Positions 37,998 to 62,272 of a stretch of DNA of 64,000 bases are shown here, one piece after another. Where the stretch lies: positions 1,856,068 to 1,920,067 of the forward strand of contig CM026427.1 of the NCBI GenBank assembly GCA_014871385.1. The letters run 5' to 3'. How positions within the stretch are numbered: position 1 is the stretch's first letter; every line of letters starts with the position of its first letter. This stretch comes from Ceratodon purpureus (taxonomy: Eukaryota; Streptophyta; Bryopsida; Pseudoditrichales; Ditrichaceae). A program made the position numbers and the translations under genes. The notes below the pieces were generated by a model. The model was not told the origin of the DNA. It saw nothing but the letters and a program-made list of their open reading frames with translations, and searched no databases.

Positions 37998-38025
37998 ATT
38001 CAGAGTCGTTAAAAACCTTGCAGAC
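37998..38025 (+). repeat. Left 28-bp direct repeat flanking the large element
   Basis: The 28 bases starting ATTCAGAGTCGT and ending CTTGCAGAC are identical to 61186-61213. The two copies lie exactly outside the terminal inverted repeats. They are either an unusually long target-site duplication or an attachment-like core. Confidence 0.8.
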
Positions 38026-38544: not shown

Positions 38545-41500
38545 TTAGATCTCCCAATTCCATCTGTCTAAAAGCATGCCAACTTCATTGAATGTCCAAG
38601 CTGGCCGGTGAATGAACTTATCGTCCACCGTACATCCCATGTATCGTTGAAGAAGACAATAAAGGTGCTTGCAGAGGATCCACTTCTTCTGACCACGACC
38701 AAGGGCTGTAGTCTTCATAGTAATAAAATCAAGGCATGTACAGGCAAGAAAATCTCCAATTGTAACCTCATACAACTGATTCTTGGCAATGGAGCCAGGA
38801 GTGTGGATAGTGTAAACAACTCCATAGCCTGGGTATGGAACCTTCACATATTTTACCACAGAGCAGTCGGTGGTAATTGATTTGACAAACTTGGCAACAT
38901 GCTCAGGTGAAGGTTCAGACACATTCTTGAATTTCTTACCATCTCTCATGGTGGGACGGTAATCTCCAGATGACTTAAGAGGTCTTAGACCATCAACAGG
39001 CTCAGATGGAGCGTAGATAGGATTGCTCCAATGAAAGGCATCAGAGGACTTTTCTTTAGGCTCATGGACATCCTCCTTGTCACCTTCAATCCCCTTAGAT
39101 GGAAGAAGGTGATCCTCCTCCAACATGAAACCTGCAGATTCCAATCCGTCGACCTCTGCTTGTGATAAATTAGTCCCCTCCTTAATAGGCCAGACATTAG
39201 GAACAATAGGATAATGCATAACAGACTTGGATCGACTCCCCATCACACAAGTAGCCAATTTGGATGGGCAAAACTTGAACTGCTTCTGCTCCGTATCTTG
39301 AGATTTGAATTTCCTTTGAAGGCCAGTAAATGTTGGAGCAGCTGTAGCCCTTCGATACTTTGCCATCACCGCATTGCATCTCTTGCCTTCGATGTTATAG
39401 CCTCTGCATTGGTCCTTGGATTGAGGTGAAATTCTTTCAATCCGCCAGTCCATGGGATTGTAACAAGGAGTCTCACGGATTATAAGGCCGTTGCGAGTAA
39501 CCACACGTCCTTCTACAGAGCCTTCAGTGAGTGAAGGATTGCTGGTGGTGGAATTCTGATTCAACGACCGGCTTTGTCCAGGCGTCATATTTTTCCCTAA
39601 CTTGGGAAGAGTGAAATTCACTCGGTCATGGCGATATGAATCATCATCATCACCAGGAGCCAAATCTAACTTCCTCTTTGCTGAACCAAAAATGTTTTCA
39701 CCTTCAAGATGAGGCAACCTCGAATTCAAACCGGCCTCGCCTGAAATTTGACCAACAATCTGCGCCACTTTTACAGGGTTACCCTTACGAGTAGCGAGAC
39801 GAAGCGCCAACACATTCCGACATGGCCCTTGTCCACCAATACGCCCCTTGAGGAAGTTGTGATATTGTGTTGACTGTAATGCGGCTCTGCAATAGTCATC
39901 AAGTGTGGCGTTGTAGAGATCCACCATATCATTCCCAGATGCTTGCAGCCATTTGTTGTGTACTGTCTCAGACAGATTGCATGTTGGCATAGAAGCTTCT
40001 TCCTCAAAGGAGAGAAAGTGCAATCATAAAGAATAATGTAAATGTCAACATCATAAAGTACATAAGTAATGCAATTGAAATGGAAAGAGAATCAAGGTAA
40101 ATAATTCATTAACAAGCACAGATGCTCTTCATTATAGATAAGGATATACTTCTATCATATCTCAACTTAGAAAAGATCTCAGCCTCTCGGCTTAGTGCTT
40201 ATTCAACATAAAGTCGAATGAAAATCTAGAATGCATGAGATGACGGTGATCTGTACAGAACACTATCTATTCCCCAATACTTGGACCCACTGGATGCCTG
40301 AAAATCATTAATGCAGAAGTGGAGGGTATTCTGTATAGAACATCATTGAGTTCCCAATACTTGGAGCCACTGGATGCCTAGACACACAGCGTTCTGTGCA
40401 GAACTCCCGTTCAGTTCCAAGTTGGTGTAAGGGAAGGTAAACGAAAGTAGCGTTCTGCATAGAACACCTCTAGGGGGCAATAACATGGAGAACCAAATTG
40501 GATGAAAAGAATGTGTTCTGTGCAGAACACTCTATTCTTTTTGTGTAGGAACAAAAGGAATAGAACACCTTTTTCGATCCAAAATCATATAACAGGTTTG
40601 TTTTGCAAATAGCCAACTTCGAAATAATTAAAGAAGCAAATTAAAATAATAGATAAAATTTAGAGTTTTGGACACATACCTCAGAGATGTGAGAGCCCCA
40701 CTGATGGTAGCGAAAATGCCAAAAATTTATCCAGTCGTGGAGCTCTTTTAAAGAGCTTTCAGCAACTGCACCAGATGAAAACCACCAAGCCTTGATCGCT
40801 GCCAAAGCGGTATCAGCATCTGATTTGGTGCGAGATTTTCGATAATCTTGGCACAACTTCAAGTGGACTTGTTGGAGCTCTGGCTTGATAAGTTGCTTTG
40901 TATGACGATCTAACGCCATTGTCCAATGAAATTGGCATGTACGCTCCCTACCTTCCATCGGCTCTTTCGAGTTTCCTGATCCAAATATGGATCTCACAGC
41001 ATTGAAGTTCGCTTGAGCCGAATCTGCCATGAAGCCTTTGAAGTTCACATTTGTGACCCCATGCTTTTCCAAGACGTTTAGCATAGACAACCACATTCGC
41101 TCTTGCGCCTCAGTTGTCTCAGACTGCATGTCGCAGACTGCTATGGTCATAACCTTGCAATAATCAGGGTGATAGACATGGATTCCCAGGGTCGACCACT
41201 CCTTCACTCTCTTGACATGGTCAAACATGACCTTCTCATTTTCAAGGTCTCCTCCAGTTTGCATTCTCTTCACAAGACCAACACCACTTCCTACGCCACA
41301 AGTTGACATCTTGAATAGATACACTAAGTCACTCCCCTGTCCGGAGAAAACACTATCATGTATATAATCGTAAGTTGAAGCCTTCTTCAACTTGAGAATG
41401 TTGTCAATGAATCCGCCCTCACCACAAAAGCGCCTAGCCTCTGCAATCATATTACGGATGCTTGGAGTGCTCAGTTTTGCCCATTTGTCAAACACCTGGG

Positions 41501-42968
41501 ATATTTCTGACTCTGTCAGCTTCTTGCCGTCCCCACTTACATCAACGAGGCCTTTTAGTAGAAGCTCCCGACCTACTGCCATTCCTATCGCCGAAACCTT
41601 AGATGCTGGTGTTCGGGCCACTTGGGTCAAAATCTCCTCCTTGATAAGATCTAGAGCCTCTCTACATTCTCCATTAGCAACTGGATGATCATGTGTTCCT
41701 ATGTGAACAGCAGCCCTGGACATGCAAGGATTCTTAGAGACAATATAGAACATTCTACACGTGCACAACTTCAGACAAGCGGGAGCAACTCTGCGGAATC
41801 GGCAGAGGACAGAACATCTCTTTGGTAGAAGAGGTGTTGGTCCAGGTGTCAAAATCTCGGGGCTGGATCCTTCCCAGTACATGTCGTTATAGTCACCATT
41901 GCGGATCAGATGAGGACATGTAGGATTTAAACATCGAAGATGTCCTAAACACTTTACGTGCTTGAATGAGAGCTCTGAATTTCGATCTGAGATGTTCGTT
42001 GTTGCAGTCTCGGTCCAAGCATATCCATTACTTCTTCGATCCATACCTTCAAGCAATCCTGCTCCTCCTTCCTTGACACAAGGCAGAGGTGGCAACTCGA
42101 AAATGACATTCCCATTGTATTGAATAGGTAAATACTTCACCTTCAAATGGGAAAAGGATGATAAATCCGCAGATTTCAAAATACTCTTCGACGATCCTTG
42201 ATTACCAAGGGCCACAATCAAGTCATAGATGCTTATTGTGGATGTCTCTGTGGTATCTGCCACAGAAAGTTTTGAAGACTTGATCTCAACTGAAGCAGTC
42301 ACTTCAATAGATTCAGACTTCACTGGCATGGAGGTCTCAGATTCTATTGGATAGCTAGCACCACTTTGTACAGATGCCGAGCATGGTGTGTCCATAGAGA
42401 AGGACTCTGAAACTATATTCCGTAATGGCGTCTCAGAAACCACGAAAGAATCGTCAGCAATGGCCTCACAGGATTCACTCATGAGTTCTTTCTGATCACA
42501 TGGTCCATCTGCACTAAAATGAAATGACTGCATCGCTATGTCATCCTCATCATCCTCATCATCAGAACTCAACAAGTTGATAGTATTCTCCGGAGACTCT
42601 TTAACAGTTGGTAACGCTCGCTTGAGATAATCACGACCTCGTCGCTCAAATGTAGCTTTAGACCGAGGAGTCAGAGTAGAAGATTGAGACATGTCTAGAG
42701 TAGATAACCCACCTATGATAGTGTAGCTACCTGCACGAAGCGTGTAAACTGTCCTACCATCTATAAGGTCTGGTTTCTGATAGATAGTCCTGAGAACCAC
42801 TCCATCAGCTCCCAGTTCCTCCTTCTCCACAATTAAAGAGATCTCATGTAACTGAAACTTCAGACACAGCAACCTCTCATCAACACTAACAAAGCCTGTG
42901 TCATCAACAAGAAGAATGAATGGAATCGAAGAGGTCAAGAGCCTGAACGATACTACTTGGCTAGCCAT
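38545..42968 (-). CDS. SWIM zinc-finger, Mutator-like transposase
   Basis: Two exons, 42968-40680 and 40002-38545, join in phase across a 677-bp intron (TCTGAG|gtatgt ... tttgag|GAAGAAG), giving about 1,248 residues. The start ATG at 42968 has a good context (CCACCATGG). An N-terminal region of unknown type is followed by an acidic linker, then a Cys-rich segment ending HIGTHDHPV, which resembles WRKY/GCM1-type fingers found in Mutator transposases. The catalytic-type region follows (VYHPDYCKVMTIAVCD, FKGFMADSAQANFNAV, then the CQFHW/H element). Near the C-terminus ACTCLDF...WILCKHLYCLL is a SWIM finger (CxCx(n)CxH). No frame breaks are seen, so it may be intact. The exact three acidic catalytic residues cannot be fixed by eye. 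Five copies of the element's palindrome lie within its intron. Confidence 0.75.
40250..40528. repeat. Palindrome cluster 1 (transposase intron)
   Basis: Five 6-2-6 sites lie within the intron of the transposase gene: around 40249-40262 (TCTGTACAGA core), 40329-40342, 40391-40404 (GTTCTGTGCAGAAC), 40452-40465 and 40515-40528 (extended to GTGTTCTGTGCAGAACAC). The spacing is irregular (about 50-80 bp). The position inside an intron points to a DNA- or RNA-level role rather than a coding one. Confidence 0.75.
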
Positions 42969-43379
42969 GGTGGCATCAGAAAGAGTGGAGCAATCAACTA
43001 GAACTGATGTCTTTTATACTTATTACGAAATATGATGTGGAGATTGGGATCCATTTACAATAGAATGAATGACTCCTTGTTGGGATCTGGTAGAGCAAGA
43101 CATAATAATAGTTACCTTTATTTGAGCAAAAATAAATTAAGTGGTCTTATCGGCACAGAACGGCTGACATTTATATTTTACCAAAATTTCTATAGCAGAA
43201 ATAGAGCTCTTAGGCTACCATCGTTCGACACAGAATGTCTGACATATACAGCTAATGTGGCCCTTCAGAGTCGCTAAAAGCACTGATGATGCGAACGATA
43301 AGTCCATTAACAGAATTGGGCTTGTAAGGTTTTAAAATACATAGAACATGCATTCAATTGAGGTCCCTTGATTTATAGC

Positions 43380-43818
43380 ATTCTGTACAGAATGACCATC
43401 ATCTATAGACATAACACACTAGACAATTACATTACAATAAATTTGGTCACAGAACAGGTCTTACAGTAATATGGAAACTAATCCCTCTAGGTGGTAAAAT
43501 GCCTAACAAGTTGTGATGACTTCTTTCTAGACGCTGAGTGGGATCAGAAGTAGTCATTGCCCTGGACATTTCTCTAGTGACGGTTGTACTTTAAAGTCTT
43601 TGAAATGAATTTCATTCATTTGTGTAAACAAAATTAGAAATTAAAATATTTATATTACGACATCAAAATGCATAGACTGGATTCTTTTAAGGCATTCCAA
43701 ATGCATGTTTGAAGGGCAACATTAGAGCCATAATCTTACTTGTGCCCTTCTGGTTAAAACAATTCTTGGATCACACAAACCTTTTAGATCGCTTGATTTA
43801 TAGCGTTCTGTACAAAAC
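43380..43818. repeat. Palindrome cluster 2 (upstream of the transposase gene)
   Basis: A perfect site, ATTCTGTACAGAAT, is at 43380-43393 and GTTCTGTACAAAAC is at 43805-43818. Weaker half-site pairs lie near 43151 (CGGCACAGAACG) and 43223 (GTTCGACACAGAATG). They fall 0.2-0.85 kb upstream of the transposase start codon. The region 43000-44521 holds no gene. Confidence 0.65.
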
Positions 43819-44521
43819 GCCCACCATCTATGGACATATTTACCTAGACAATAACATATACACCATTAAATTCATGGCCATAGAACAGTATATACAAATA
43901 TATCATTTAATGTTTAATAATAATAAGTCTCAAATATTAATAATTCAAACATTTATATCAATATAATAATTAAAATGACAATGGGCACAATGCTCAGTCC
44001 ATGTTTTACTCTAATTTGCATCTATCATGATTAAGATTAAAGTTACTTATATAACTAATAATATTTAATCTCATATAGAAAGGCGTAGATGAATTATATA
44101 GTAAACTGTATAGTTGGAAAGTAATGGCCGAAAGCACGCAGCAACAATATACAGTACGCCAACAAGAATTAGGACAAATCATAATTGATAGAGTCATAGG
44201 CCAATCTGTTACTGACGGCTGCGTATTCTAAAATTATGCAAATAAACACCTAATAATTAAATTAGCCGCCTATGCGTTTGAGATCCAATGTGAGAATAAT
44301 ACATTAGCCAATTTGGTAATCACTTTTCAGCAAATACATAGGATCAAATATAAGACCTACTATAATTCGAAGGGTTACAGCTAACACTTATTAAATATGG
44401 TTATTAAGCATATTGGAAGAAACAAACCCTCCTAAGACGCATCTCCATCAATATAAGCTTGGTCAAGTCCCGTACTTCTCACAATCATAAGTGAGCAGTT
44501 TTTATGATGTGTTCCTAAGTT

Positions 44522-45138
44522 ATGGTCGAGACGAGAGCTGTTAGGAGAGCAAAGGCATTACTAGAGTCTGTGGGAAGATCATTGAGTGAGGAGAGGTCCC
44601 TTCCAGAGGCGCATGATTCAGGAATCGAGTACTACTCAAAGACTTACTCCAGACGAAGATTAGCTGCATCTGTGCTACAACTTCAAGAGGTATCGTTTTC
44701 CCACACGCAATATTTCAAACTTCTACATTAGCATATAGAGATATGTTATTTCAAAAAGAATATAGAGATGACATCTGCAGCCATTTTTGTTTTTTCTAGA
44801 CTGCGATGATGCCAGACAGAGCGTTCAGTGTAAACATATTACTGGAGATGTCATCTGAGGCACTTGTTCTAGTTGCGGTTTTGGCTGTCTTTGTTACATA
44901 TTTTATAGTTTGGACTAGAGATGCTCCTAGAGAGAGACAAAATATTGAACTTCAAATAACAGCACCACTCCCATCAGACGTCTCATTAGACAAATCCGAT
45001 GGCACCTTGAATTATGAGAGTCACTTCAGTGAAGCCGATGAGGTTTGGAGCCATGAAAAATCATATCACATGTATTGTGATTTTAATGAAGGGCTCGACT
45101 ATGAAGCAATTCACAATGTAGAAAACATGATGGAGTAG
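44522..45138 (+). CDS. Small single-span membrane protein of the element
   Basis: Two exons, 44522-44689 and 44800-45138, join in phase (CAAGAG|gtatcg ... tttctag|ACTGCG), giving 168 residues. The N-terminal part is basic and serine/arginine-rich (MVETRAVRRAKALLESVG, SRRRLAASVLQLQE). One hydrophobic span follows, EALVLVAVLAVFVTYFIVW, then an acidic tail ending HNVENMME and TAG. I do not recognise the family. It lies between the transposase and the methyltransferase gene in the element; the role is unknown. A chance pair of open frames cannot be excluded, but the in-phase splice and clear membrane span argue for a gene. Confidence 0.5.
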
Positions 45139-45791
45139 AAGTACATTGGATAAGTATCGTTAAAGCGACAGAATAAGTCCACATGTATGATACCTTGATT
45201 ATACAAAATAATATCGTATCAAGCAATAATGACGGTTGGCCTAGCCTAGTGAGCAAATAGAATTGTGACAGTAATGTAGCTCAAATGTAATTCAAATTAA
45301 AGTTATCTATATTATATTTCTCTTTTTTGATGATGCGATCTGGTGGATGGAAGTAGCAAAAGTAATGAATATCGTGAAGGTACTATGGTCTGTACAAGGT
45401 CGAGGATCTGAATCTATTCTGCCTAGGGTCGGCAAGTGTCGATTTGGTTTGCGCTGTTTGTAATCGTTTGGGTGCGTGATTGCTCACTTATATGTGATGA
45501 ATTGTTCAGACTTCTTGTGATCCTTGATGCTTGTTATTCGAACTGTAAGTGTGTTCAAACTATGTTTCCAAGTAGTAATTTTGGTTCAGATCCAGGGGCG
45601 CAGTTGTTCCATGTCCACATTGTTCTTAGCAGGTCATGGTTGGATTCTTGGCTTCTTCGTTAGAAAAGCTCGGTGTATGTGTTGTGATTTTGGGTCCACG
45701 CTGTAGACATCCTTAGGTGTTCTATACCAAGTAGAAGTTTACAGGTAGCTTATAAGTTCAGAAATTTTGTTCCATATGAGAGTGAATGATA

Positions 45792-46464
45792 CTTCTGTGC
45801 AGAACAGGGATAACTAAGAATGATACTATGTTGTACTCTGCGTATAACAAGGCAGGCTTGTAGCTTAGTTCATTCAAATGTGGATTCAGATGGATTGATA
45901 GTTCCTAGATGTGGATTCAGATGGTTTGAATAAATGTAATGGAGTGGTGCCGAACGTGGGTTTATAGGTAGTTCAGTTGGCTCAGTCATAGTGCAAATTC
46001 GAAGAGGGGATTCTTGGGCAGCCGCTGTTCTAGATGTGGATCATGTTAGTCAATATTAATGTGACGTTTTGTGCCGAGCAATGGTCACATGGGTACGCAT
46101 GGTATCATTTGTAGATTGTAGTAGTTCAAATGAAATTGATGTTCCGTACCAAACAGGGGTTCAAAGCCCAAATGTGGATTCCGAGTAATTGGTCCGGGGC
46201 TTGTTCTGGGTACCATTCACGGAAACTTGAGATGGTTATTCTTTAGAGACTCATGGTGTTTTGTGCCGAATAGGGGTAATGTAGGCACATTATATGAATT
46301 ATGTGATAGTCATACTTGATATCATATGTAGGCACACAGAGGTCAATGATATCAGTGACTTAGTTAGTTGATAATCACCTACAATTACTCATGTTTCAGC
46401 TTTGGTGCTTCGCTAGGTCAGATGTATTAGAGAGTCTGTATAGAATTGTCGTTTTGCATAAAAC
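45792..46464. repeat. Palindrome cluster 3 (spacer before the ParB/methyltransferase gene)
   Basis: CTTCTGTGCAGAAC is at 45792-45805 and GTTTTGCATAAAAC at 46451-46464. Between them are degenerate sites (TTTTGTGCCGAGCA near 46066, GTTCCGTACCAAAC at 46141, TTTTGTGCCGAATA near 46260). More half-matching copies follow to about 47050. The region 45139-46690 has no supportable gene. Confidence 0.55.
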
Positions 46465-47513
46465 GTGGCATCTGGTATTGATTTAATCGCCAATTCCATA
46501 TGTTTTCCAAGAGATTAAGCAATTTTAACCATATATTTGTTGAGAATTATAGATTTTCTTATACTTAGGGGATTTGTGAGTATTCATCAGCTTCTTACTC
46601 ATCATGCTCTGTGCCGAAAGACTCACAGACCTACATTTTTTATTACAGATAGGAAGTCGAAATCAGCACGAAGAGGGAGAGCCGAGCAAAATGTCTGAGG
46701 AATTACACCGACTTGAAGAAGTCGTGACAGGAGAAATCGGTATGTTAATCACCTTGAGTCTCCCCAGTAATCTACAAAATGTAAGATGATGCATTGTGTT
46801 AATGTAAGATGATGCATTCTGTGACGAGTGCATGTATGTGGCCATTTTGGAGTTTATTTGTGTATTGATTTATGTTTGAATGGCAATGTTCTGGATGGCC
46901 TTGTTATGTGAATGGCAATGGACTCAATTCAAGATGGAGCGTTCTGTGACAAACAAATAATTGTTCGTATAGCTAATGATATGAATGGCTCCTGAAGGCT
47001 ACATGAATTGACAGGATCTGTATGCAAGAAAGTACGTTCTGTAACGAGCTTGCTCAGGCCGAATTTAACTCTTGCATTTTTCATGCCCAGATATTAACGA
47101 CATGTTACTCGCTGGTGACGAGAATGGTGCAATCTTGCAGCAAACACAAGAGAGCACGGGTATTTAGTTCTTAAACAAGGAACATATTCTTCTCACAATT
47201 CTGTAATGTTCGATGTACACAATATTGACTTCATTTTGCAGTTGCAGAACCGGGTGTTCTACGGGGAGAAGATGGGCCTGACTTCGATCATGCTGCTAAA
47301 GCACAGAGAGCAGGTGAACTTCGTAAGATTCTAAATATCTATGAGCAATATGTGTTTTCATTCAAATGCACCATCTGTGCTTCCTAATTAACTTCATTAG
47401 TATCGACATTTGCCGTTGCTCAATTGCCTTGGTCTGTGTCGAACGATGTATATCTCAACAATATTGCTGTTGTCATTTCTTAAGACATGGTGGCAATGAC
47501 TCTGGAATGGAAG

Positions 47514-48415
47514 ACGATGCTGGCTCAGATGGAGATAACGAGGAGCATGATATGATAGAGGAACTCGTGTTTCAGGATGATGCACCTGACAGAGTTCCAG
47601 TACTTAACCACAATGAGGAAGATGATAACGAAGGAATCCTTGATGGAGAACTGGAGCTGTCTGGACCAGCACTGGATTCGGCACAAGAGTACGATTTGAT
47701 TGTAGCACATCGACAGACGAGGGTGAACTCTATCCGGATCTTGAAGCGCCTGGAGATGTTCAAAGGTGGTAAATCTCACATAGATATACCATTGTGCAGA
47801 ATGAGGAAGTTGCAGGTGGTACGCCCTGCGCTGGAGAATGACATCACGAAGATGCAAGCTGAGTTTGTCCATGGCTACCGCGATGGAGCAGCTGCTTTTT
47901 ATGTTTCAACAACAAACTTTGAAGGTCAAGAGAAGATGGTTACCGCAGAGGATTGAGGAAAATGGAGTGCTAACTGGCGGCAAAGAGACTTAGAGTTTGA
48001 GGAGTTCTTGAAACGTGACAGCGAGCTCGCATCGTTGTCAGACAAGTATTTTTACATGTGGGATGGTAACCACCGTCTAGTAGCGTGGTATGATTTTATC
48101 AAGAAATCGCACAGAAAAGATTATGATTGGCACTTCAGGGTAAGATCCATTGTGCTCAAGACAGAAAAGGACGTGACGGATGTACTAACCGCAATGCACG
48201 ACAACAACAAATCAAATGAAAGCTCGCATGTGAAGCAGAACCAAGTCCATACTATGCATCGAATTCAAAAACTCGGATCTTTGCCAATTGAGCAATTTCG
48301 GGATTTACTTGCTCCTGATGAGATGAGCGCGGCTATCAAGGCTCAGGAGCTACCTGTGGAGAAAAGGCCGTGGTATCCTATTCCCAGAGCAAAGTTTCTC
48401 GAAATTATTCACAGT
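47514..48415 (+). other. Exon encoding the acidic region and ParB-like domain
   Basis: This 902-nt exon begins in an Asp/Glu-rich stretch, then QTRVNSIRILKRLEMF and HIDIPLCRMRKLQVVRP. After the in-frame TGA at 47954 it continues into the DGNHR motif (about 48062-48076), the hallmark of the ParB/Srx fold, and a helical region ending EIIHS at the splice donor. The entry phase (1) and exit phase (0) fit neighbouring exons only if the frame is read through the TGA, so the stop is a recent mutation rather than a wrong model. Confidence 0.7.
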
Positions 48416-48880
48416 GTAAGCAATATCCAATGCGTTCTTTAATGTACACTTCTAAACTTTATGTGTCGTTTATTCTTTACTCACTATTCTTTGGTTTATA
48501 TTGCAGCAAGAGATCACTGAGGCAGGTGATGAGGGTCAAAGGAGGTATGAAGAAGAGAATCCCCGACGTAGGCGTACTGCTAATGGTTTGCTTCAGGCCA
48601 TAAACTCTGCAATGGAAGCAAAGCGGAAGAGCTTGTCTGCTGCGTTTACCAAGTACCTGACCATTTCGAATCCTGCAAATGGAAAATCATTCCTCACCGA
48701 GGTATTGTTCTATCATCTCAGTCCATGATATTATGTTTCATTGTCTACTTCGAGATTGCCATATAGATTAAGACTTTAGTAATCATGCTGCATTCATCTG
48801 GGTTTGTAGTAGTCGATTTGATTGAAATAGGTTATCTTGCGCACGACTGGGGTCCACACGGGGTTCATCGCACTAATGGT

Positions 48881-49418
48881 GTTCTGTGCTGAACACCCTT
48901 TCTGCATGGTAACTATGAGATATGAATATATTGAACTTTGGGCGTTCTGTGTCAAACACCCATGTGGGCACGATAAGGTGGAATTCATTTGGTTATATTT
49001 GTTTAGCTTGCTGTGATGGTTTGGGTCTGTTGGTAGGGTCGGCCAACCCACAATGGCTTAAGCCGGTTGCTCTGCAGGCCCTATGTTTAACATGCTCGCA
49101 CATCCTTGTATTTGTATCATACATAGCATCTTGATTCATCATAAGCTGATGAGGCTATGTGCTGTGGGAATCCATTAGCAAGCGGGGTAGTCCATTTCGT
49201 GGACAATTTGTATGGATGGCCAACATGTTCGTCTGGTGAGAATTTCATGGTTAGCAAGCATCGAACTTCAAAAGAAATACTCCTGGGATGTTCTGGACCA
49301 AACTGGACTTTCGCCACCTCGCCTTAAGGGTTGATCGATGTTCTGTGTCTCACTGTATTCTCCATTCTTTAGTACTCAGTTGAAGTAGGTTTGCCTGATC
49401 TAGGGTTCTATGCCGAAC
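48881..49418. repeat. Palindrome cluster 4 (intron of the ParB/methyltransferase gene)
   Basis: GTTCTGTGCTGAAC is at 48881-48894, GTTCTGTGTCAAAC at 48944-48957 and GTTCTATGCCGAAC at 49405-49418, with a weaker copy near 49335. All fall within the intron 48702-49534. Confidence 0.65.
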
Positions 49419-51356
49419 AAGGATGAATTGAATGTAGACATCGTTCTCTTACTCTAGATTAATGGATGTCGTACTAAGCAATACATCTTGAATGACTTAT
49501 CTCACTAATTTTTTATTATTGTACTGTCTAGCAGATTGCTAAGCACTGGTCTGCAAATTTGACACCAGAGATGACCACAGAAAAATTACAGAATCTTGCT
49601 TCTTCTTGTATTCCCTCGACGGAAAAGGAGCAAATTCTGAGAATCTGGAACTCCTCCAAAGAGAATAGGAAGCTCAAGAAGTTTCCCCTTGCCCCAAGTG
49701 ACAAGACCTTCAACACGTACCTCCACAAATATGTGTTCTGGCATCAATTGAAAGAGAACTCTATGGAGTTTTACAAGGCTTTTGCTAGTGATTATGATCT
49801 CTAGGACATAACTCCTAGTATAAAGTTCGAGGCATATGTTAACTCAAATCAAGTTAGGCAATGGGATTATGCATTCAATCGGGCTATTCTGAACAAGGAG
49901 ATCCAGAAGTCAGAGGAATGGGGGAGCCCAAAGCAGCCCTATGGTGAACGGGCCATGAATCGCCTAATCTACCGGTGAGTTACTGTCCATTCTGAATACC
50001 TATGTAGATAAGTCTTACCAATCGAGTTTGATTTCGTATGTATATTATTTTCCCCTTGAGCTTATCACATCAATCCAATGCCCGGTTAGCTTGTTGGTGG
50101 TATATTTTCATAAACAAAATTAGAGTACTGTAGCAAGTTATGGCAACTGTATTTTTTCGTAAAAGAAAAGACAGTCAAAGTCCAACGAATCTCCAAAGCT
50201 TCCTTAGCTGCATGCACTGTTCTTTCAATTTTATTATTTTGTGATGAGTCTAGTTTCGGCATATGCCTTGTCCAAGCTAACTTATATGATCATTTTGGTC
50301 GTGGTTCGAGGCGTCTGTTTGCGCGTCACGGCTCAGTTTACAGAAGAGTCTATGCTTGAGTTTTCGAATCACATGCTACTGCTGTGACTTATAGCGTTGG
50401 AATTTGTTTGTGTGATTTCGAGGAAAAAATAATGTTAGAGTACTGTACATTGACTGTGCGACTGGGCCTGACTTCTTGTGGGCTGGTTGGTGTGGGGCAC
50501 TCACTTGCTGAGATATTGAGATTGTTTTTCATATGGAATTTCGTATGTTTAATATTCCTCTAATGCAACTTAATGATGTCTTTTTGTTTGCAGATATTGG
50601 ACGCATATATTAATGAAGGAAGGACTAGTGCTAGAGCCTCATCCTCTCTTTGCAGCGTGGCTTGATCTCAACAATGAGGATTCTATGTTTACGGCTGAGC
50701 AAGCAAGTGACTGGAGTGAGAACCACTTACAAGCTTGCCATTGGTATGTGGAAATCGATCCTCTTGATACCCCTCCTCATGAAATTGACAACAGGCGGTT
50801 GGTTGAGCCAACTTTCAAGCGCCAATGTGGTCCTCCTCAGGAATACGTGGAGCAACGGGCTGCCCCTGATGTAGCTACTGGAAAGACCGCAAAGCCAAAG
50901 TCCAAAGGCGGTGCAAGAGGGCCTTCGAATGTTGTTGCGACATCAAAGGATCTCACCGCTAAGGGCAACAAACGAACAGCCGGTGTAGAAAATGAACAAG
51001 CAGCCTCTTCAAAGAGAGGCAAGAAAAATGATGGAATCGCAAATCGGCCTGTCCATACTGACGGAGCTCAGTCTGAAGCTAGGTCTTCAAAATCCCATTC
51101 ACATGTCACTAGGAGTATAGCGGGTGGCTACTTGTCACAAATGCGGACCTCTCTAGTTCAACGCGCTCAAGAAGGAGAGACATTCCACGAAGTTGTCATC
51201 AACAACTCTGTGGGTGATTTCTTGGCAAGCGAGGCATCGATGTTCGAAGATTTTGCTGCCTTGGTACACTCCTTACAATATCCCTATCTCTTTTCATTTT
51301 AGTGAATCCATGTCAATTCTATTATTAATGACACCATTTTCTTGTAACTATCACAG

Positions 51357-53121
51357 GCAAGAGAAAACGTGCAGACCTTTCTTCGCGGCAAGGCAGGCAC
51401 GTTTCCAATAGCGGATCTTGTTATTATTGACCAGCCTTTCGAAACGTGTGTCGCTGGATTTGGAGATGGCATACCGGCGTGGAACTCATTGGATGGATCA
51501 ATTAGAAATTGGTACTCATCACGGTTCGAGTTTTGCAACGACTATCTCCACGACGATGGTGCTATTCTTATATTGATGCCCATGGGATTGAGTCACGAGA
51601 TTGTGCACTGGATTTTGAAGTACAAACTCAAAACAAAGTGCGAATGGCAAGTTCACCAGTCTGAGCCCCTTGCGCACCCAGCCTATGAGGGCATGATGGT
51701 GAGTCAATCATTGCACCCATGTGCTGCAATTTCTTAGAATCCAGTTTGACAAGTACTGCTGTGACTGCATAATGCCTGTTCTGTGCCAAACAGGCAAAGT
51801 CCAATTGTTCGAATTAGCAGCTTCGCAACTTTACTTGGTCATAGGCTATTGTGTTATAACCAATTGGTATTTGTTGAATTCGTGGATTCTGTGATATATG
51901 TTGTAAGTTGATGGAGATCAGTTTGACCTCTCATCGTCCTTTTACATTCTGGTGCCTCGTTCATTTTAGTGTGTGATAAATTTAATTCTTGATTCTTGTG
52001 GAGTTTTTCGCTGTGCCAAACAGGTTCTGTGCCAAACAAGTTCTGCTACATTTTTTTTTTTCATTCCCGTGCCTCCCTCATATCAGTGCGAATAGATTCT
52101 TGGCTTCGTGATTTTAGTGATTATGATCAGTCGTTGGTTCTCTTTAGGGCGTTCTGAAACTGTTGAGAATAAGGGATATTAGTTTTGTTGTGCGAGGTGG
52201 GGTGAGAAAATTTGATTTTCTTGAATCCTAATAATGAAGATTAGAACATGTTCGTCAACTAATTACTGAACCATGTCCATGTGCTAGTTGAAGTCGATAA
52301 TACTCAGTCCTTGTAATCTGTATAATTTTATTTGACTAGGAAATTTAGATTTGCTGATTCATGGGTTGCTGTTGTGAGAATAACCCTAGGGCAGGGCAAC
52401 GCAATTGTGGAGTTTAGGCTCTTGCAATGCCAGCATTAGTGGACGCAGTAGAAGATATTGAGTTTAGGAAGGATTAAAGGTTGAGATGCAGCGGAGACAC
52501 TTCGTAAAGAAGGGGGAAATGAATAATTCCGAGAGTTGGCAGTGAGAAGATGGGTGAAACTGCTTTTTTTCATTTCATCGTGACGCATGTGAGAGGAGAT
52601 TATCATGTACAGGCTTATTTGACATATCTCAAATATAAAACTGACTATTGCAAATGTCTTGTCCTGTTCAGACTTTCAATTTCTCAGCAGTGCTGTTAGT
52701 GAAAACGGGACGGCTCAAGGACAAGCAGTGGGAGAGGTTGCCAATTCCTCTGAAGTTAAACGCTGATCCATTGTTGGCCAATACCTCAGAGGACCCTCTG
52801 AGGTACCTTACTCTCACTAACCATGTGGAAAAACCTTCCACTGACAAAAGCGGAAACCCTTGGCGTGGACCACATGAGAAGTCACATATTTTCTTTCAAA
52901 TCCTTATTGACATGTGTTCAAAGCCAGGAGACATAGTTGTCGATTTGAATGCCTCTACAGGGGCATCTCTTTTGGCGTGCCGAGCTTCCGGGCGCCACTT
53001 CTTTGGCATCGAAGAAGATGTTGGCATATACAACGCTATCTTGAAGCCACTGACCACGGCAGGGGAGGCCAAAAATCCATTGAAAATCCGAGGTGGTATG
53101 GATGGTAACCTCAGCCCTTGA
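51357..53121 (+). other. Exons encoding the DNA methyltransferase domain
   Basis: Exon 51357-51698 carries motif IV and the strand DDGAILILMPMG. The next exon, 52672 onward, carries TFNFSAVLLVKTGRLKD, a putative target-recognition stretch, then HEKSHIFFQILIDM and motif I. Motif IV reads DQPF where active amino-methyltransferases have (D/N/S)PP(Y/F/W). Motif I reads DLNASTGAS instead of the usual D-F-x-G-x-G form. Either the enzyme is divergent or its active site has decayed. No stop codon falls inside this domain. Confidence 0.7.
51775..52037. repeat. Palindrome cluster 5 (methyltransferase-domain intron)
   Basis: CCTGTTCTGTGCCAAACAGG is at 51775-51794. GTTCTGTGCCAAAC is at 52024-52037, immediately after a further GTGCCAAACAG half-copy at about 52013, giving a near-tandem arrangement. 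All are in the intron 51699-52671. Confidence 0.65.
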
Positions 53122-54317
53122 ACTACAGTGTGCCATATATCGTATTTTATTGGATTCATTGCTTTACATGTTATCCATATCTGCTTGGCTTTATTATGTT
53201 TAGAACACGCAGTGTTGTAGCTTGTAGTACATTCATGTTTTCTACGAGAACAATGCAATGATAATATATCTATCATACTTTTGAGCCTATTGACTTCTTT
53301 TTCCATTCCACTCTATCGTCATATTTTTCCAATCCAGTCTATTGACTTCTAGTCCGAGAGAATGCACTATAGAACAAGCATGTAGGAAAGGGTCAATTGT
53401 TGCAGAGGTTCTTTGTGTTTCGCAAGGTTAATGCATCTGTGTATGGGAAATGCTGATGCATGCATGCCCAAGTTGGTTCCGGGGCTAAGTATTCATGCAT
53501 TGGCTGCTGTCGGTAGGGAGTGCAAGGCAAATTGCAATTCAGTGCAACCAACTACATAGAATGATTTCGGTAGTAGATCTAGGGAGCACTAGATTATGTG
53601 TACCCTTGGAATTGTGTTAGGTTCAAATGTTTTACGTCTAACTGGTTCGAATTCCTTGCCGTCTCTTCAGATTCTTACTAGTTAGAAGAGATCCACATCT
53701 GAATATTGAATCGTCAAGTATTGTGTGTGTACTGCCTCTTTAACGAGTAACGCCTCAAGAGAAGTATCAAAGGATTCAACAGTAATTAATCATGTATGTC
53801 AGTACGAAGAGACCATTCCCTGCGCTTCAACATGAGCTCTGAAATTCAACTCATACGTAGTTTAATCTCTGTGGTGAAAGCTCGAAATTCAAAAACACAT
53901 CACCATAAAAAATGAGTGCTGCTTCAGAAAAACTTCGATTCGCCTCAATATGGAACAACGAGTGCCATGAAATAATCTCACAAAATTTTATTTCTCATCT
54001 AAGTCTTTTCCTAATACTGTCTTGCTAACTGTGTCTCCATTTCTGCAGAGGTCCGGCCCAGGATGATTCCCTTCTTTGCGGATCCTAGTTTTATGAGAAG
54101 TCCATCCCCAACGTTCTCGCTACCTCCCGCAGCTGCAGCTTTCGCATCATATCTTGCCGTTCAAATATCACCGGAAAACCAGTCCAAAGAATTCAAGCGC
54201 CGCCCCAAAGCAAGTGTATATGTCGATTCTGAAGCAGTGGAGTCCACCTCCAAAGGTGGGAATACCATAGATCTTTTGAACTCTGAGTCTCCTGGGAATA
54301 GTTCTATATCTTCATAG

Positions 54318-55162
54318 ACACATAGTTTTCAGATGTTTATGGGAAACATGCATACCATCGTCCCTCACTTATAATGTGTGTGTATGTAAGAAGTATTGCA
54401 TCATGAAGCAAAGACACATATTTATAGCAGTTTTTATTCGAATTCTAGTCTCCACACAGAAAACTGTTCAAATTATAGAGTCATCCAACAGTAGTCCCTC
54501 CTATTTTTAGTTAAATCATTATACATCCTACTATATATTGACTTAATTTGCTAAAAATATTATATTATATTTAGCCTAATCCCTCTAAAAATAGTCTTAA
54601 TTCTTAATTATAGTAACATTCGCTATTTTTGTAATCTTATTTAGTTAGTATATGATATCATAACATAGCAAGTAGTTAGTATATGATGTCAAAACCTTAG
54701 TAATTATATGATATCAGAACATAGCAATTAAAAGATTTTCATATTTAGAGTTTAAAGTTGACATCAAAGAGACTCACAATTTGCAATTAGAAAATATATC
54801 TTGGTTATTCATATTTTTTGATATTTGAATAATATTTTGATACTCTCAAAATTTACTCTCAAAATATGTTACTCTCAAAGTATGTTACTTTCAAAATTTG
54901 TAAATATATAATTCTCAATTACTCTTTGTATATATATTATACTATCTTCTACACTTATGGAATAAATAAACATTCTTGCTTTTAAAATCGATACTATATA
55001 TATTTATAATATATAATAGAATAGATTGCAACATAATAATCTAGTATAGAGTCACATGATTATTCATTATTATAGCTATATGTTATTATACTAATGTTGG
55101 GATATATATATCTGATAAGTGAATCTTAGTATTATTGTTTATATAAAGTAATAATTATATAA

Positions 55163-55199
<37 letters not shown>

Positions 55200-55306
55200 T
55201 ATATACATGCATATGTACATAGAATTTATCACGTTAAGTGTTATTTTAGTGTTAGTTGAGGTATAATATAAATCCAAATTTCCAATAATATTTCCAATTT
55301 CATATT

Positions 55307-55340
<34 letters not shown>

Positions 55341-56223
55341 ATTAATTATATGTATATTAATTGAAATATTAATATATTATATATAATTAAGAATGCATAC
55401 AAATATATGTTAATGTCTATTACATAATTTAAAATAATTATAACATAGTCATGAAATATTTCCATATCGACACGTACATAATTTATGTCTTTATAATTAT
55501 TTTTATATGGATAAAAATTTAAACATAAATGAATGTAGATATTTATATACATGTATGACATATGTTTATTTATATAAATATATTTATATTGATATAAATA
55601 TATATATACATATATATATATATATAATTTTTTTTATGTACATAATTAATCTAAATTTCTTTATATTTATATATTTATATACGTAATTTTATATAGAAGT
55701 TTGCTTCATATAATCTACATACATCCGACCTAAACCCTTGCAATACATGTAATTATATACGTTTCAAGTAAGGCCTTTTGATTTGAATTGGATCTACTCT
55801 TTTTAGGCATGGAGAAATCCTTGGTGTTGTATATTTGGAATGTAACTAGATGTACTAACTCCTCTTAACGTATATAGATAGATATATATTAATTATTACA
55901 CCCTATTTAATATTTACAAAACGATATTATTTATAATGTATATATAATAACATACAATTTAACTTCAATATTTTGTCTAACTTCTAACATTGTATTCATA
56001 AATTTGGATTTTTTGTAATTTAGCAAGAACACCATGTTTACTTTTACATATAGAACATTGTTTTCAATAAATATCTATATGACTTTACTTTGACATATAA
56101 ATTTTATACATCTCAATAAAATATATTAGACATTTTTCAATAAAATAAAATTCGTATACACATTCGGCTAATAATGTATTGTCTTTAAAGATAAATTTTG
56201 AACAAGTATTTTACAGCTATGCG

Positions 56224-56297
<74 letters not shown>

Positions 56298-56760
56298 TAT
56301 ATACATTTATATATGTATATATATGTATATACACGCATATACTTATATATTAAACTTATCAAACAATTGAAGATGTAGCCTATAAAGTGTAAGATTGAGT
56401 ATTATTTGTAGACATTTACATATACATACACATTTATCAATAATAATACATTTTTATTATAATGATGAATTTTAAAGTATATAAAGAGGTTGTAACAAAA
56501 TTCCATTGTGTTTTTTGCCATTTCTACTGTATCTAGACAAGAGTTTATGAAGTGAATACGACAATATATGAATAGGTGAATACGGCCAAACAATAAATAA
56601 TTTTAAATGATTTTATAATTATATATTCTATTTTTAGACTCATTATTTTAATCAAACCAATTGTTAGCTTTTCTATTTTATCTATAAATAATCAGAAGAA
56701 ATCTACAACAAAATAGTATAGTGGATAAATACTATTGTTATTGGCTTAAATACATGTTCA
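54318..56760. repeat. Very AT-rich spacer with TA microsatellites
   Basis: Long (TA)n tracts lie at about 55166-55193, 55311-55337 and 56227-56294 in extremely AT-rich DNA. No gene is supportable. Open frames on the minus strand across the TA runs are artefacts. Confidence 0.8.
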
Positions 56761-56801
56761 AATATATCTAAAAACGATTAAAATTGCGCCCATGAATAGG
56801 T

Positions 56802-57389
56802 GTTCTGCACGAACACCAATATTTTGCGTGAATAAAGTCTAAAAATAACCAAGTATTTCCAGAATATTGGCTTCCTGGGTCGATTTCAATTACGTCATGA
56901 GCTGGTGTTCTGTACAGAAAGTGAGTAAAGGGAGAGGAGCGGCCCGTCAGGAATGGTCAGAGTGTTATTCTGCACTAAGTGATGTCCCTGTTCGGCACCG
57001 AAGGAGGTGATTGAGAATTTTAAGATGGATAAGTTATATTTCCAATGCTATGTTCTCACATTCGGCACCGAACTAGGCATTAAAAAATTTTCGATATGGA
57101 TTCTGGAGTTCTTCACTCCTCCCCTTCTTAAGTTAAGCATTTACTAATTTGATTATCAGGTACTAAATGGCTTAGGAACCTCAGGTGTTACCTTTAAGTA
57201 CGTGCTTCAGATTTGTGCATTGAGATTTCGTGTTCGACGCATAACAGTCATCAACAAGCAAATTTGAAGTTATTCCCTCAAGTTTCCTGAGTTGAAGATT
57301 TTTAGTAATTTGTCCTCATTAACATATCTCTTTTGTCATTAGTAAATCATGGTCTAACTTAATTCTACACTACTTGTTCGGCACAGAAT
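56802..57389. repeat. Palindrome cluster 6 (3' flank of the zinc-domain gene)
   Basis: Sites: GTTCTGCACGAAC (56802-56814, one base short), GTTCTGTACAGAAA (56907-56920), GTTCGGCACCGAAG (56990-57003), ATTCGGCACCGAAC (57060-57073) and GTTCGGCACAGAAT (57376-57389). Weaker ones lie near 57232, 57480 and 57650. Here the arm is often TTCGG/CCGAA instead of TTCTG/CAGAA, with both arms changed together, so symmetry is preserved. Confidence 0.7.
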
Positions 57390-58204
57390 GATCAGAGTCA
57401 ATGAATGATTGTCTCAACAAAAGTTGTTTCAACAAGTATAGCTAATTTCACCATTACCACATACATTGTCTAGATTATGCATTCTGAGCAGAGCAATCAG
57501 AAACATAGCACTAACTAATATGTACACATCTCTGATCATCTCATCCAAATATTCTAGTGGATTAAATGTTCACTGATGTCTTTGGTGTTGTGGTGATTGT
57601 TTAGTGCATCTACAATTTAAATTTCAAAGCTTTTTATCTAGACCTGGTTTGGCATAGAACTAGTATATCATGTCAAAAAGTAATAGTTGTATGTAAAGCA
57701 TGATTCAGTATTCCAGGGAGCAACATGATAGAGTTTGCCGAAGATGACCACATTAAGCCCGAAAAGAAGTATCACATAAAGTTCATTTCAGTAATCTGCA
57801 CAAGCATAAACAAGTATGTTGGAAAAATCACAGAACATATATACCGTTCTTGATGCAAAAAGAGAATACAATTATCTTAATATGATTAGATCAAAGCATG
57901 GACAGAGCTATAGTTTTACCTTGGACCTTGTACGCTTTTTGTTTTTATTGGGAGTGTAATTTGTGCCCCCTATGTCACTGTTGAGGAATCTTCTCTTTGT
58001 CTTCGGATTGGAACATTCACCAACCGTAGGTTCCTTCGTGATATCTGTACATTCATATTCAAATTAAGTTTCATAAATGACAATGATCTGATCAAAATTT
58101 ACATTTTATTTCAAATATAGTGGTAACATACCTGGCATTCTGTCCAGACCTACGCTCCTCTTCCAGTTTTCGGCGAAGGCTGATCGACATTCTGTCTTTG
58201 CGCA

Positions 58205-59284
58205 TCAATCTTCCAACCAGGTCTGCATCACTATACACCAAGGATGATACATGCAAGTGCAAGGTGCAACAATGATGTCCATGTGTGGGAATTTGCCATT
58301 GCACAATGCACACGGATTTACTGTTATCATATCTGTACTGTGGCTTGGTATTTCTTCCTGTACATGTTGACTAGGTGGCAAGTTCATGGGTAATCGAACC
58401 CGTTCTTCCATTTTCTTGAGGACGCCTTTCAATCTATCCATGTCTCCTTCAAGATTCACCTTTACAGTCTGCAATCGATCCAGCTCAATCAGGGCTTCAA
58501 GAATCTCACCCTTTGAGTCGACTAGGGCTATCTCTTTATGTTTAATTTTGTATTTTAGCTTGATGATCCGCCTCTCCTCCTTGACCATCCTCTCACCAAT
58601 CTTCTTCGAGATCTGCTCGCTATAGCTACCATTACCTGACTTCTCCTTGCACTTCTCTAAGTCCTCCTCTGCCTCCTGCAACTGAATCTTGAGCACCGAG
58701 ATTTGCTCCAGTAGACCTTCTCTTTCAGCTCCCTCACTTGGGTCTTTGGGTGATGTCATCCGTGAACTTATAAACACATGCGTATTAGTGTAATCTGCGT
58801 CTGCTTTGTTGTAAGCTACCCTCAAATCCTCAATCTCGCCCTCGATTTTGGACTTGGCTACTTCATAGTATGTCCCTTTCAGTGATTCTGCTCCAACATA
58901 CTTTATCACAGTTTCACTCTTCAAGTCTAAGTTCTTGCACGTACTCCATCTCTCCGCTGCGTACTGGGCCCAGTTCATTGGGTACCCATGGCAAACTTCT
59001 GACACAATCGCTTGAGCAAAACTCTCTGTAACACATTGATTTTTGGGCATCTTAGTAAGTTGGTAGACAGCTGGATACAGGTCCTCAACACGCCTTTTCA
59101 CTCTTTCCGACTTAGCACCTGGGTAGAAGTATCCCAAGTTCTGCTGCCTGGTACCAAACATTTGGACCAGCTCTTCATTCTGCACGTGGTTTACATCTCT
59201 GGAAGGATCCAGCCCATAGTTGGGCAATGACACATCCAACGCAAACCACGGCTCATTTCCTCTCTCCACATTACTCCTCTCCAT
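58205..59284 (-). CDS. Coiled-coil protein with truncated Cys/His zinc domain
   Basis: ATG at 59284; the open frame ends at TGA 58205-58207, giving 359 residues. An N-terminal globular part (NEPWFALDVSLPNYGLDPSR, MNWAQYAAERW) is followed by a long coiled coil, then the zinc-type segment CALCNGKFPHMDIIVAPC, CTCMYHPWC. Past the TGA the same frame continues CAKTECRSAFAENWKRSVG, matching CACSKCKKILSAGWLKSFG of the paralogue at 0.8 kb. It then splices in phase (58132, CCAG|gtatgt) to an exon at 58044-57920 with KTKRRFLNSDIGGTNYTP, and perhaps to a last short exon at 57795-57772. The gene therefore once ran to about 57772, and a nonsense codon now removes half of the zinc domain and the SDIGG tail. 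The function is unknown; its presence with the transposase and ParB/methyltransferase suggests an element-specific role. Confidence 0.65.
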   Translation of the reverse strand: MERSNVERGNEPWFALDVSLPNYGLDPSRDVNHVQNEELVQMFGTRQQNLGYFYPGAKSERVKRRVEDLYPAVYQLTKMPKNQCVTESFAQAIVSEVCHGYPMNWAQYAAERWSTCKNLDLKSETVIKYVGAESLKGTYYEVAKSKIEGEIEDLRVAYNKADADYTNTHVFISSRMTSPKDPSEGAEREGLLEQISVLKIQLQEAEEDLEKCKEKSGNGSYSEQISKKIGERMVKEERRIIKLKYKIKHKEIALVDSKGEILEALIELDRLQTVKVNLEGDMDRLKGVLKKMEERVRLPMNLPPSQHVQEEIPSHSTDMITVNPCALCNGKFPHMDIIVAPCTCMYHPWCIVMQTWLED

Positions 59285-61113
59285 TGCTAAACAATCTGTT
59301 CTTGCTATCCTCAAAAACAGTTTTCTCTAGTAAGATTATAACCGCTGCAAGGAACCCAGATACAGAACCTGCCAAATCGCCACCAAAGATTAACATTAAA
59401 TCATGATTGACACATTTATAATTCTGGTGAAATACTGGACTATCCAAAATGTAACAGCTACCGGTAATCTACTTACCTCTTTAGGATGAATATCCTACTT
59501 TTTCGAAATTATCATATCAAGAGTTAATTCTTAACTAGTGACAAGGATTTGCTTGGAAGCCCGAGACAGATACACATGAATCTTTAATACAAGGTTTCAA
59601 CAGATAAGTACCGAGATTTCCAGGTTGGCACGGTGAGGAAGCTCGCAGGGGAACACCAGACTGTACAGGCTCACGTAGTTCTCATGAAGGATACTGTAAG
59701 TTTATGACAGAGGATCCGCGTTTAGACCACCCCACCACAGAGAATTGCTGCATAGGACAATCCTTTCTGCACAGTGTTGATCTGGTGGTTCACAAGCACA
59801 AGAATATCAGCACCAATAACGGGGTCCATTTGGTATAACATTAATGAGAAATAACTTAACAAGAAAAAATGCTTACGGTGAATGTCAATAACAATTCCAC
59901 CTTTCCAAGTATTGCACTTGCTGATTAACTTGCAGACCTGAAGTAGTTCCCTTATTTGTAATATTTGGAGTTTTTCATTGATAGCTCCGCCTTTGGTCTG
60001 CAAGACAACAACATCTCAGTGCTAGAAAATTCATACCACCAAGATATTCTGAAAAGCAAAAATGAAGTACTGAACTGTTATACCTTGAGGTGGGTCTTAA
60101 CACCACATAATCTTGCTTTGCGTCCACATTTTTAAACTGACAGATTTGTCCTCCCTGTATTTTAACGAGAAGATAAATAAGTTACTGATGGGATTGAGAT
60201 ATTTACTACATTCTTTGTGGCCAAGGTGTCGAACAGACTTGACGATCAGCATTTGGCTCATCACATGACTTGCTTCATGCCTGAAATAAGATGGTTTATC
60301 AACACAAACCTGGGAAATATTCTGACTGGATGAAATATGCGAACCCTACATTTCTACTTGGGCAAGGTTTTCAGCCATTTGACAATGTTGAGTAAATTTG
60401 ACACTTTGTACCAAATATTACCTGATGCAGCTTGAGTCTTTGAAAGTCCTGGTATCGGATTGCATCAGTCTCTGATCAATCCACCATCCACGTTTGTGTG
60501 AAAATTAGCTCCTCAATCTCACTTTACCTCAACATCCATTCTTCCATAAGGTGCAAAACGAAAGAAACACAAAAAACTTATCAATAAAAGAAAGGAAATA
60601 ACAGGAAAACCTCATTCAACCCTTCAAAAGCATACCTAGCAGCTGTAGTCGAGATGATTTGTAGAATAGGGCACAACCAACGAGAGGGAACTTGAACTTG
60701 TACCACTAACATGGACAAATCAATCTTGAGCTCAATCACTTAGCGAATCCAGTAGCATTGTGGTAGTATTTGTCGCAACAGTGAATACGGAATACCGCAA
60801 CTATATATTGCTTGTGTATCAAGAGCTTGAGCAAGATGAGTTGCATTGCCCTGGCCATGGCCATGGCAGCTATGTGGATATGACAGACATTGTACTGTCT
60901 TAATTGTCATCAATTATCACTCATTGTGTGTTCCCCTAAAGCCGTTTTATTAACCTAAATTGGCCATCAAGTTGATTAAATTTGACACGTTGGTGGAGAG
61001 GTCATCATTTCAATTGGAATATCTTTTGATAGATTTCAAATCATTCACTAGTCATGGATGATTTCATCCTCATATACAGAATGAAACTGTCTTACTAAAT
61101 AAAATAATTCATT
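59285..61113. other. Right-hand spacer of the element, possible decayed exons
   Basis: On the minus strand several exon-like pieces with splice-like borders occur (for example about 60001-59882 with GAINEKLQILQIRELLQ, 60155-60085, and 60290-60200 containing an HEASH motif). Their phases do not join into one frame and I recognise no family. I do not call a gene; a decayed fourth cargo gene or 5' leader exons of the zinc-domain gene are possible. Confidence 0.3.
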
Positions 61114-61185: not shown

Positions 61186-61213
61186 ATTCAGAGTCGTTAA
61201 AAACCTTGCAGAC
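61186..61213 (+). repeat. Right 28-bp direct repeat flanking the large element
   Basis: Identical to 37998-38025. It lies immediately outside the right terminal repeat and about 380 bp upstream of the H2B start codon. Confidence 0.8.
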
Positions 61214-61592: not shown

Positions 61593-62272
61593 ATGGCCCC
61601 CAAGGCAGCGGAGGAGCAGAAGGCCGGCAAGAGCAAGGCCGAGAAGAAGCCCGTGGTGAAGAAGGCGGAGAAGAAGATCAAGGCCGATACCAAGGGCGAG
61701 GGCAAGAAGAAGAAGTCCAAGAAGAGCGTCGAGACCTACAAGATCTACATCTACAAGGTCCTCAAGCAGGTATAGCTTGTGTTCTCTCTCCCCCTTTTCT
61801 TTCTTAGAAGTGCGTCTCTTCTCTGTCGTATTTTGGTGTTTTCGTGTGCTGATTGTAGGTTCTTAGGGTAGGTTTGCTTTGCTTAGATTGAGTTGATGGA
61901 AAGGATACTATGATAGTTGTGTTATGCCATTCCGGGAGTGAGCGATTTTAGTTTAGGGTTTGGTTTTGGTTAGGGCGTATCGTAGATGGATATCTGCTTT
62001 GGGGATTGGAGGCTAACTGCTGTTTCTGGTTGGTGCAGGTCCACCCTGACACGGGTATCTCATCGAAGGCGATGGGAATCATGAACTCGTTCATCAACGA
62101 CATTTTCGAGAAGCTAGCACAGGAAGCTGCACGTCTGGCTCGGTACAACAAGAAGCCGACGATAACTTCTCGCGAGATTCAGACGGCGGTGCGTTTGATT
62201 TTGCCTGGTGAGTTGGCGAAGCATGCGGTGTCGGAGGGCACGAAGGCTGTGACGAAGTTTACGAGCGCGTAG
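61593..62272 (+). CDS. H2B: Histone H2B
   Basis: Two exons, 61593-61769 and 62039-62272, join in phase (AAGCAG|gtatag ... tgcag|GTCCAC), giving 136 residues. The lysine-rich N-terminal tail ([20 protein letters not shown]) leads to the histone fold starting [20 protein letters not shown], then [40 protein letters not shown] and the C-terminal helix ending VTKFTSA. H2B pairs with H2A in the nucleosome; the conserved C-terminal lysine that is ubiquitinated is present in VTKFTSA. A 269-bp intron between the tail and the fold is unusual, since most plant H2B genes are intronless; the intron implies a polyadenylated transcript. Confidence 0.95.

Follow-up and report, generated by a model that had tools for sequence, protein, structure and literature searches.

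The transposon and its genes

A stretch of 64,000 nucleotides from contig C7 of the moss Ceratodon purpureus, 1,856,068–1,920,067 (the window, whose positions are used below unless another copy or locus is named), contains one copy of a large DNA transposon. Its introns and spacers hold many copies of a 14-bp near-palindrome, and the present study deals with these sites and their possible function. The original prediction placed the element at 40250–57389. The homology edges to two other copies, A (~819,806–846,592) and B (~16,281,849–16,309,097), sit at 38,026 and 61,185, the right end was also read directly, and therefore the element is 23.2 kb long rather than 17 kb. Copies A and B both lie on contig C1 and were chosen for their site clusters; their comparison with each other gave sharp homology edges. 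The termini of the window copy are GAGGGAGGCTATGACATGAGC at the left and, on the reverse strand, GGGGAATGCTAG at the right. The inverted termini of copy A share GACATGAGCGGTGAGCGATGAGCC at both ends, and those of copy B are similar. A direct repeat of 28 bp flanks the window copy (37998–38025 and 61186–61213, both on the plus strand, 28 of 28 bases identical). This is longer than the usual target duplication. The flanking repeats at copies A and B, read by eye, are 9 bp and 10 bp long, respectively. According to the available part of one report, the target site duplication of Mutator-like elements (MULE) is 8–11 bp (PMC6446971). The MULE transposase domain of Pfam found no match in 11 relatives of the transposase, and the SWIM domain matched copy A weakly (E 0.54; 10.3 bits, the cut-off being 19.6). 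Calling the element Mutator-like would rest on how long the duplications at A and B are, together with the weak SWIM motif.

Three genes were modelled in the element, with exon borders according to our own reading. The transposase gene lies on the minus strand. Its first large exon (40641–43010) is an open frame with relatives, and its second exon (38545–40023) carries a SWIM-like CxC...CxH motif seen by eye and is about 70% identical to copies A and B in tblastn. The second gene (44522–53121, plus strand) is a predicted ParB-like/DNA methylase gene, for which about 10 exons were modelled by eye. It is broken by in-frame stops in the window, and the exons read in copies A and B (six in each, plus the last one in A) are open. 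Three small exons (46650, 47091 and 47243) have no match in A or B and are regarded as tentative. The name ParB refers to a DGNHR-type motif seen by eye in the exon at 47489–48414 (plus strand), which has sequence relatives; none of 24 relatives of this exon matched a ParB model in Pfam. One of the relatives is the C. purpureus protein KC19_VG291500. The last exon (52661–53121, plus strand) matches the end of the N6/N4 DNA methylase domain PF01555 with an E value of 7e-7 in the window and 3e-7 in copy A (29.8 and 31 bits, above the curated cut-off of 26.7). It also matches phage DNA methylase families (best E 1.4e-9). The usual catalytic motif of such methylases is of the DPPY type. The putative catalytic place reads DQPF, by eye, in the window, A and B, and therefore methylase activity is uncertain. 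The methylase-like exon with DQPF is seen at 51358–51699 in the window and at L037:864–1208, the same in two subfamilies. The third gene (58205–59326, minus strand) is an open frame with relatives and encodes a predicted zinc-motif/coiled-coil protein. A profile search against solved structures gave nothing useful, and no viral relatives of the transposase or the ParB-like exon were confirmed.

The transposase exon has at least 80 matches in the genome (57 candidates scored), which were grouped into 55 loci. At 48 of the 55 loci a ParB-like exon lies upstream on the opposite strand within 30 kb, in 43 of these within 7 kb. Four of the 52 ParB-like matches used had no transposase partner. The copies fall by identity into sets of roughly 97%, 91%, 84% and 77%. 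Of the transposase matches on contig C6 (110 Mb, the inferred sex chromosome), many contain in-frame stops.

Distribution of the palindromic sites

A separate motif model was trained on sites of this very element, and therefore the enrichment was rested on the consensus RTTCKGYRCMGAAY, taken unchanged from the original prediction for the main counts. Five exact matches were found in the window, all of them within 40,250–57,389 and none outside. With up to one mismatch there are 18 matches against a mean of 0.49 over 100 dinucleotide shuffles, and no shuffle reached 18. All 18 lie inside the transposon (38,026–61,185). Allowing two mismatches gives 37 matches, 33 of them in the element and four elsewhere in the window (6448, 22589, 30925 and 31054). 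About twenty sites confined to the element had been predicted. The number agrees well with these counts, and the confinement holds in the window, although the borders first assigned to the element were too narrow. Genome-wide, the consensus has 1,820 exact matches, and the reversed pattern is 47 times rarer with 39. Chance and dinucleotide composition as the source of the motif are ruled out by the shuffles and by this reversed-pattern control.

The sites of the window copy stand in groups. Five form an array in the transposase intron (40248–40528; starts 40248, 40328, 40391, 40452 and 40515), and four lie between the two divergent genes (43148–43818; starts 43148, 43223, 43380 and 43805). Sixteen, from 45792 to 52037, fall in introns of the ParB-like gene as modelled, the first eight starting at 45792, 46066, 46141, 46258, 46433, 46606, 46816 and 46941, and the other eight at 47036, 47431, 48881, 48944, 49290, 49405, 51778 and 52024. 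Eight more (56907–58150; starts 56907, 56990, 57060, 57232, 57376, 57481, 57647 and 58137) follow to the right of an AT-rich block. This block (54500–56800) contains long TA runs and no motif matches at up to two mismatches.

The expected location in introns and spacers was borne out. None of the 33 window sites (up to two mismatches) touches a modelled coding interval, and the same holds for 35 sites in copy A and 33 in copy B (up to one mismatch). The modelled coding intervals make up 36% of the element in the window and 30% in both A and B. Thirty loci (L005–L034, the window's own locus included) were found by the transposase alone. They hold 212 sites with up to one mismatch in 90 kb of flank, against none in 65.5 kb of matched coding sequence. 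Some of the flank is coding, namely a portion of the second exon and, for the 77% set, the beginning of the first exon as well. Each of the 30 loci has at least five such sites. Specificity of the sites for the element is supported by the first 50 genome matches listed, all on contig C1, of which 46 lie in copies of the same element. Copy A holds 22 of them and copy B 19, and the other 5 are in a copy that has an internal deletion and retains parts of the transposase and zinc-motif genes.

Conservation and form of the sites

The sites outlast their surroundings. In the transposase intron of the 97% and 91% sets together (19 copies), 47.7% of nonsite columns differ versus 9.8% of site columns, a contrast equalled by 2 of 300 circular shifts of the mask. 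The 91% set alone gave 21.1% versus 5.2% (0 of 300 shifts), and with the 84% set added the values were 48.9% and 22.7% (5 of 300). Upstream of the transposase, the corresponding values were 25.5% and 13.8% within the 91% set (16 of 300 shifts), and 59.5% and 15.8% when the 91% set was compared with the 84% set (4 of 300). The site columns in these tests were picked by the motif, which biases them toward conservation. Therefore, sites were picked in one copy and scored in the other for copies A and B. Across six noncoding segments, 30 of 434 bases of sites picked in A differ in B (6.9%) versus 28.8% of the background (2,296 of 7,960). With the roles of A and B exchanged, the values were 23 of 429 (5.4%) and 2,303 of 7,965 (28.9%). 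Among the 30 differences, 17 fall on the degenerate positions 1, 8, 10 and 14. This conservation, together with the rarity of the reversed pattern, supports the proposed selection for a symmetric site of the dimer type. Pieces of one small transposon are ruled out as the source of the sites, since their flanks are unlike: only 2 of the 595 pairs among 35 window sites share at least 22 of 40 flanking bases.

Each site consists of GTTCKG half-sites about a YR centre. Paired changes between the arms had been suggested by the original prediction, and this part was not upheld. When arms were permuted among 35 window sites, matching arms were no more frequent than expected (p 0.45 with the sites oriented, 0.83 in plus-strand reading), and the position-5 letter showed no covariation between arms (p 0.15 in the window, 0.73 in copy A, 0.31 in copy B). 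Because the arms do not covary, the symmetry is that of two degenerate half-sites, each conserved alone. In the 84% set the palindrome is lengthened to 24 bp, AGGGTGTTCTGTACAGAACACCCT. Around the sites of copies A and B, flank complementarity is near chance. GTTCGGTACCGAAC is a common form in the 77% set. When polarity was scored against GTTCTGTGCCGAAC, 16 of 18 sites over the ParB-like gene were plus, one was minus and one neither; the eight sites near the right end comprised five minus, two plus and one neither. The sites of the window copy depart from the consensus at 43 bases. The C and G of CKG/CMG account for 23 of them, 19 being C-to-T or G-to-A changes, as would be expected if those cytosines were methylated in a silenced copy.

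In the arrays of the transposase intron, site starts are mostly 63–65 bp apart in the 84% and 91% sets and 42 bp apart in the 77% set. Start-to-start spacings below 135 bp cluster near 42, 63, 84, 105 and 127 bp. This pattern is not taken as helical phasing, since the spacings are not independent and the test on distinct spacings is weak. The units between arrayed sites are often unlike, and at L024 one unit is, by eye, nearly the reverse complement of the next.

Related elements appear to carry other motifs. A second transposase, 37–42% identical to the first, is nested in a copy of the 91% set (L045), where the ParB-like exon of the outer copy lies 21 kb from the nested transposase. The 10-kb stretch at this locus has a single two-mismatch match to the RTTCKGYRCMGAAY motif. 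At L045:8307–9798 there are instead eight exact TGTCGTCAACGACA, each within a perfect 24-bp palindrome CCTACTGTCGTCAACGACAGTAGG and one per tandem unit of 210–212 bp. The units are nearly identical, and their sameness is no measure of the palindrome's own conservation. The TGTCGTCAACGACA core has 1,868 matches genome-wide versus 9 for the reversed pattern. From its position, the array probably belongs to the nested element. At a more distant ParB-like locus, a 171-bp tandem array occupies L046:2626–4000. It contains repeats of a motif similar to TAGGGGCCGATCA along with a palindrome of 10 bp, TTTGTACAAA.

Possible function of the sites

Any function proposed for the 14-mers has to account for their enrichment, their concentration in copies of one element, their absence from coding sequence, their conservation against drift, the arrays and the other palindrome that accompanies a related transposase. 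We consider it probable that they are bound by a protein acting as a dimer. This protein, most likely one of the element's own, would mark the noncoding part of every copy as self and would act against silencing in the manner of VANC proteins. Each monomer would read one GTTCKG half-site independently around the YR centre. Once bound, it would keep silencing marks off the length of the element, or strip them from it, and so make the element's genes expressible. Any of three proteins of the element may be the binder: the transposase, the ParB-like/methylase protein or the zinc/coiled-coil protein. Of the interpretation offered by the original prediction, the symmetric dimer-type site, the specificity for the element and an origin other than one small transposon are supported, and the argument from paired arms is not.

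The comparison with VANC rests on Arabidopsis VANDAL elements, for which sequence-specific anti-silencing of transposons has been described. In the available parts of that report, VANC proteins bind short motifs that are multiplied in the introns, intergenic regions and terminal noncoding parts of their own family, binding leads to loss of DNA methylation at this family, and related VANDAL elements have other motifs (PMC5735166). The motif of VANC21 is YAGTATTAY, and those of VANC6 are AGTTGTCC and AGTTGTAC (same excerpt of PMC5735166). PMC10398659, also available in part, is a further source on VANDAL and VANC. As far as these excerpts go, the moss element is alike in being a large multi-gene DNA transposon with a short motif in noncoding parts only, multiplied in tandem, and with other motifs in related elements (PMC5735166). 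Enrichment of the motif in the noncoding parts of one family and its rarity elsewhere were found in the window and among the first 50 genome matches listed. Tandem multiplication of motifs that differ between relatives was found at L045, and also at L046, where the motif is non-palindromic. On the other hand, the moss sites are near-palindromes of 14 bp, or of 24 bp in one set of copies, and the predicted accessory genes are the ParB-like/methylase gene and the zinc/coiled-coil gene.

Several observations weigh against this interpretation. No VANC-type domain (DUF1985) occurs among the Pfam matches, with E values up to 1, of the exons scanned. Therefore, the element may be said to work like a VANDAL element and is not filed among them. 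The VANC21 motifs are non-palindromic and in one orientation in the excerpt of PMC5735166, whereas the moss sites are near-palindromes with regional polarity at most. Four of the first 50 genome sites listed are single and outside recognised copies. The contrast in conservation was weaker upstream of the transposase (42.9% of nonsite versus 18.7% of site columns, 27 of 300 shifts). The array at L046 has no 6-2-6 palindrome of this kind, which makes it doubtful that long palindromes are general in the group. Finally, the sites could be read by a protein of the host, as discussed below.

Another explanation, which we regard as unlikely, is that the palindromes are bound by the ParB-like/methylase protein, which would methylate the element encoding it at N4 of cytosine or N6 of adenine, so that the foreign mark would shield the element from silencing or guide its own proteins. 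The divergent ParB-like exon beside the transposase at 48 of the 55 loci and the matches of the last exon to PF01555 and to phage DNA methylase families argue for this explanation, and a palindrome suits an enzyme acting on both strands. However, DQPF occupies the catalytic place of a DPPY-type motif, the ParB-like part lacks a ParB match in Pfam in all 24 relatives, and most such methylases read 4–8 bases rather than 14. In a more elaborate form, the putative ParB-like–methylase fusion would dock as a dimer, spread and write a non-host methyl mark sparing the copies from silencing, with the sister motifs as separate codes; this form seems to us slightly less likely again. The ParB–parS system has a palindromic site with two half-sites, and its sites are few and near-exact. 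The moss element shares the palindrome of two half-sites and possibly a ParB-like domain, but it has dozens of degenerate sites and no Pfam ParB match. Fungal DNA transposons encoding a TET/JBP dioxygenase are a further parallel for a transposon with a DNA-modification enzyme, as far as the available part of the source tells (PMC12730594). They differ from the present case, which has a methylase-type domain, a moss host and dispersed sites (PMC12730594, same part).

It is improbable, in our view, that the sites serve as promoter or intron elements through which a transcription factor of the host drives the genes of the transposon. Their position around and inside these genes and the single polarity of 16 of the 18 scored sites over the ParB-like gene are consistent with such a role. 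However, of the first 50 genome sites listed, 46 lie in the element, which would be unusual for a host factor, and the related element has a different palindrome.

Binding of the transposase for transposition itself has a slightly smaller chance still of being the function. Ac/Ds and En/Spm have repeated short subterminal sites for their transposases, and the moss element resembles these plant DNA transposons in its repetition of a short motif. In the window copy, groups of sites do lie 2.2–2.5 kb from the left end and 3.0–4.3 kb from the right end. Unlike in Ac/Ds and En/Spm, the moss sites spread through the interior rather than standing at the ends: 16 of the 33 are in the introns of another gene, and the window copy has none in its termini or in its outermost 2.2 kb. 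That the sites are functionless, neutral remnants of tandem duplication is very hard to maintain. Two neighbour pairs are clear duplicates (40248/40328 and 43380/43805), but the divergence of sites between A and B is about four times below that of their surroundings and most flanks are unrelated.

If the VANC-like function is correct, the combination of a VANDAL-like layout with different proteins and a symmetric site would point to an ancient or a repeated origin of self-recognition codes. A symmetric site would also offer a palindromic handle for targeting chromatin state. In addition, the methylase-like exon raises the question of whether a transposon-borne methylase of the N4/N6 type acts on plant DNA. 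The literature was searched, with thin coverage on several topics, and no description of this element or motif was found.

Some features of the window outside the element were noted by eye. A frame at 819–1241 on the minus strand contains CxxC...YHPWC, like the zinc protein of the element, and is perhaps the remnant of a relative. Frames at 11915–16014 (plus strand) resemble a disease-resistance gene of the TIR-NBS-LRR type. Just to the right of the element, a frame at 61952–62272 (plus strand) resembles the end of a histone H2B gene.

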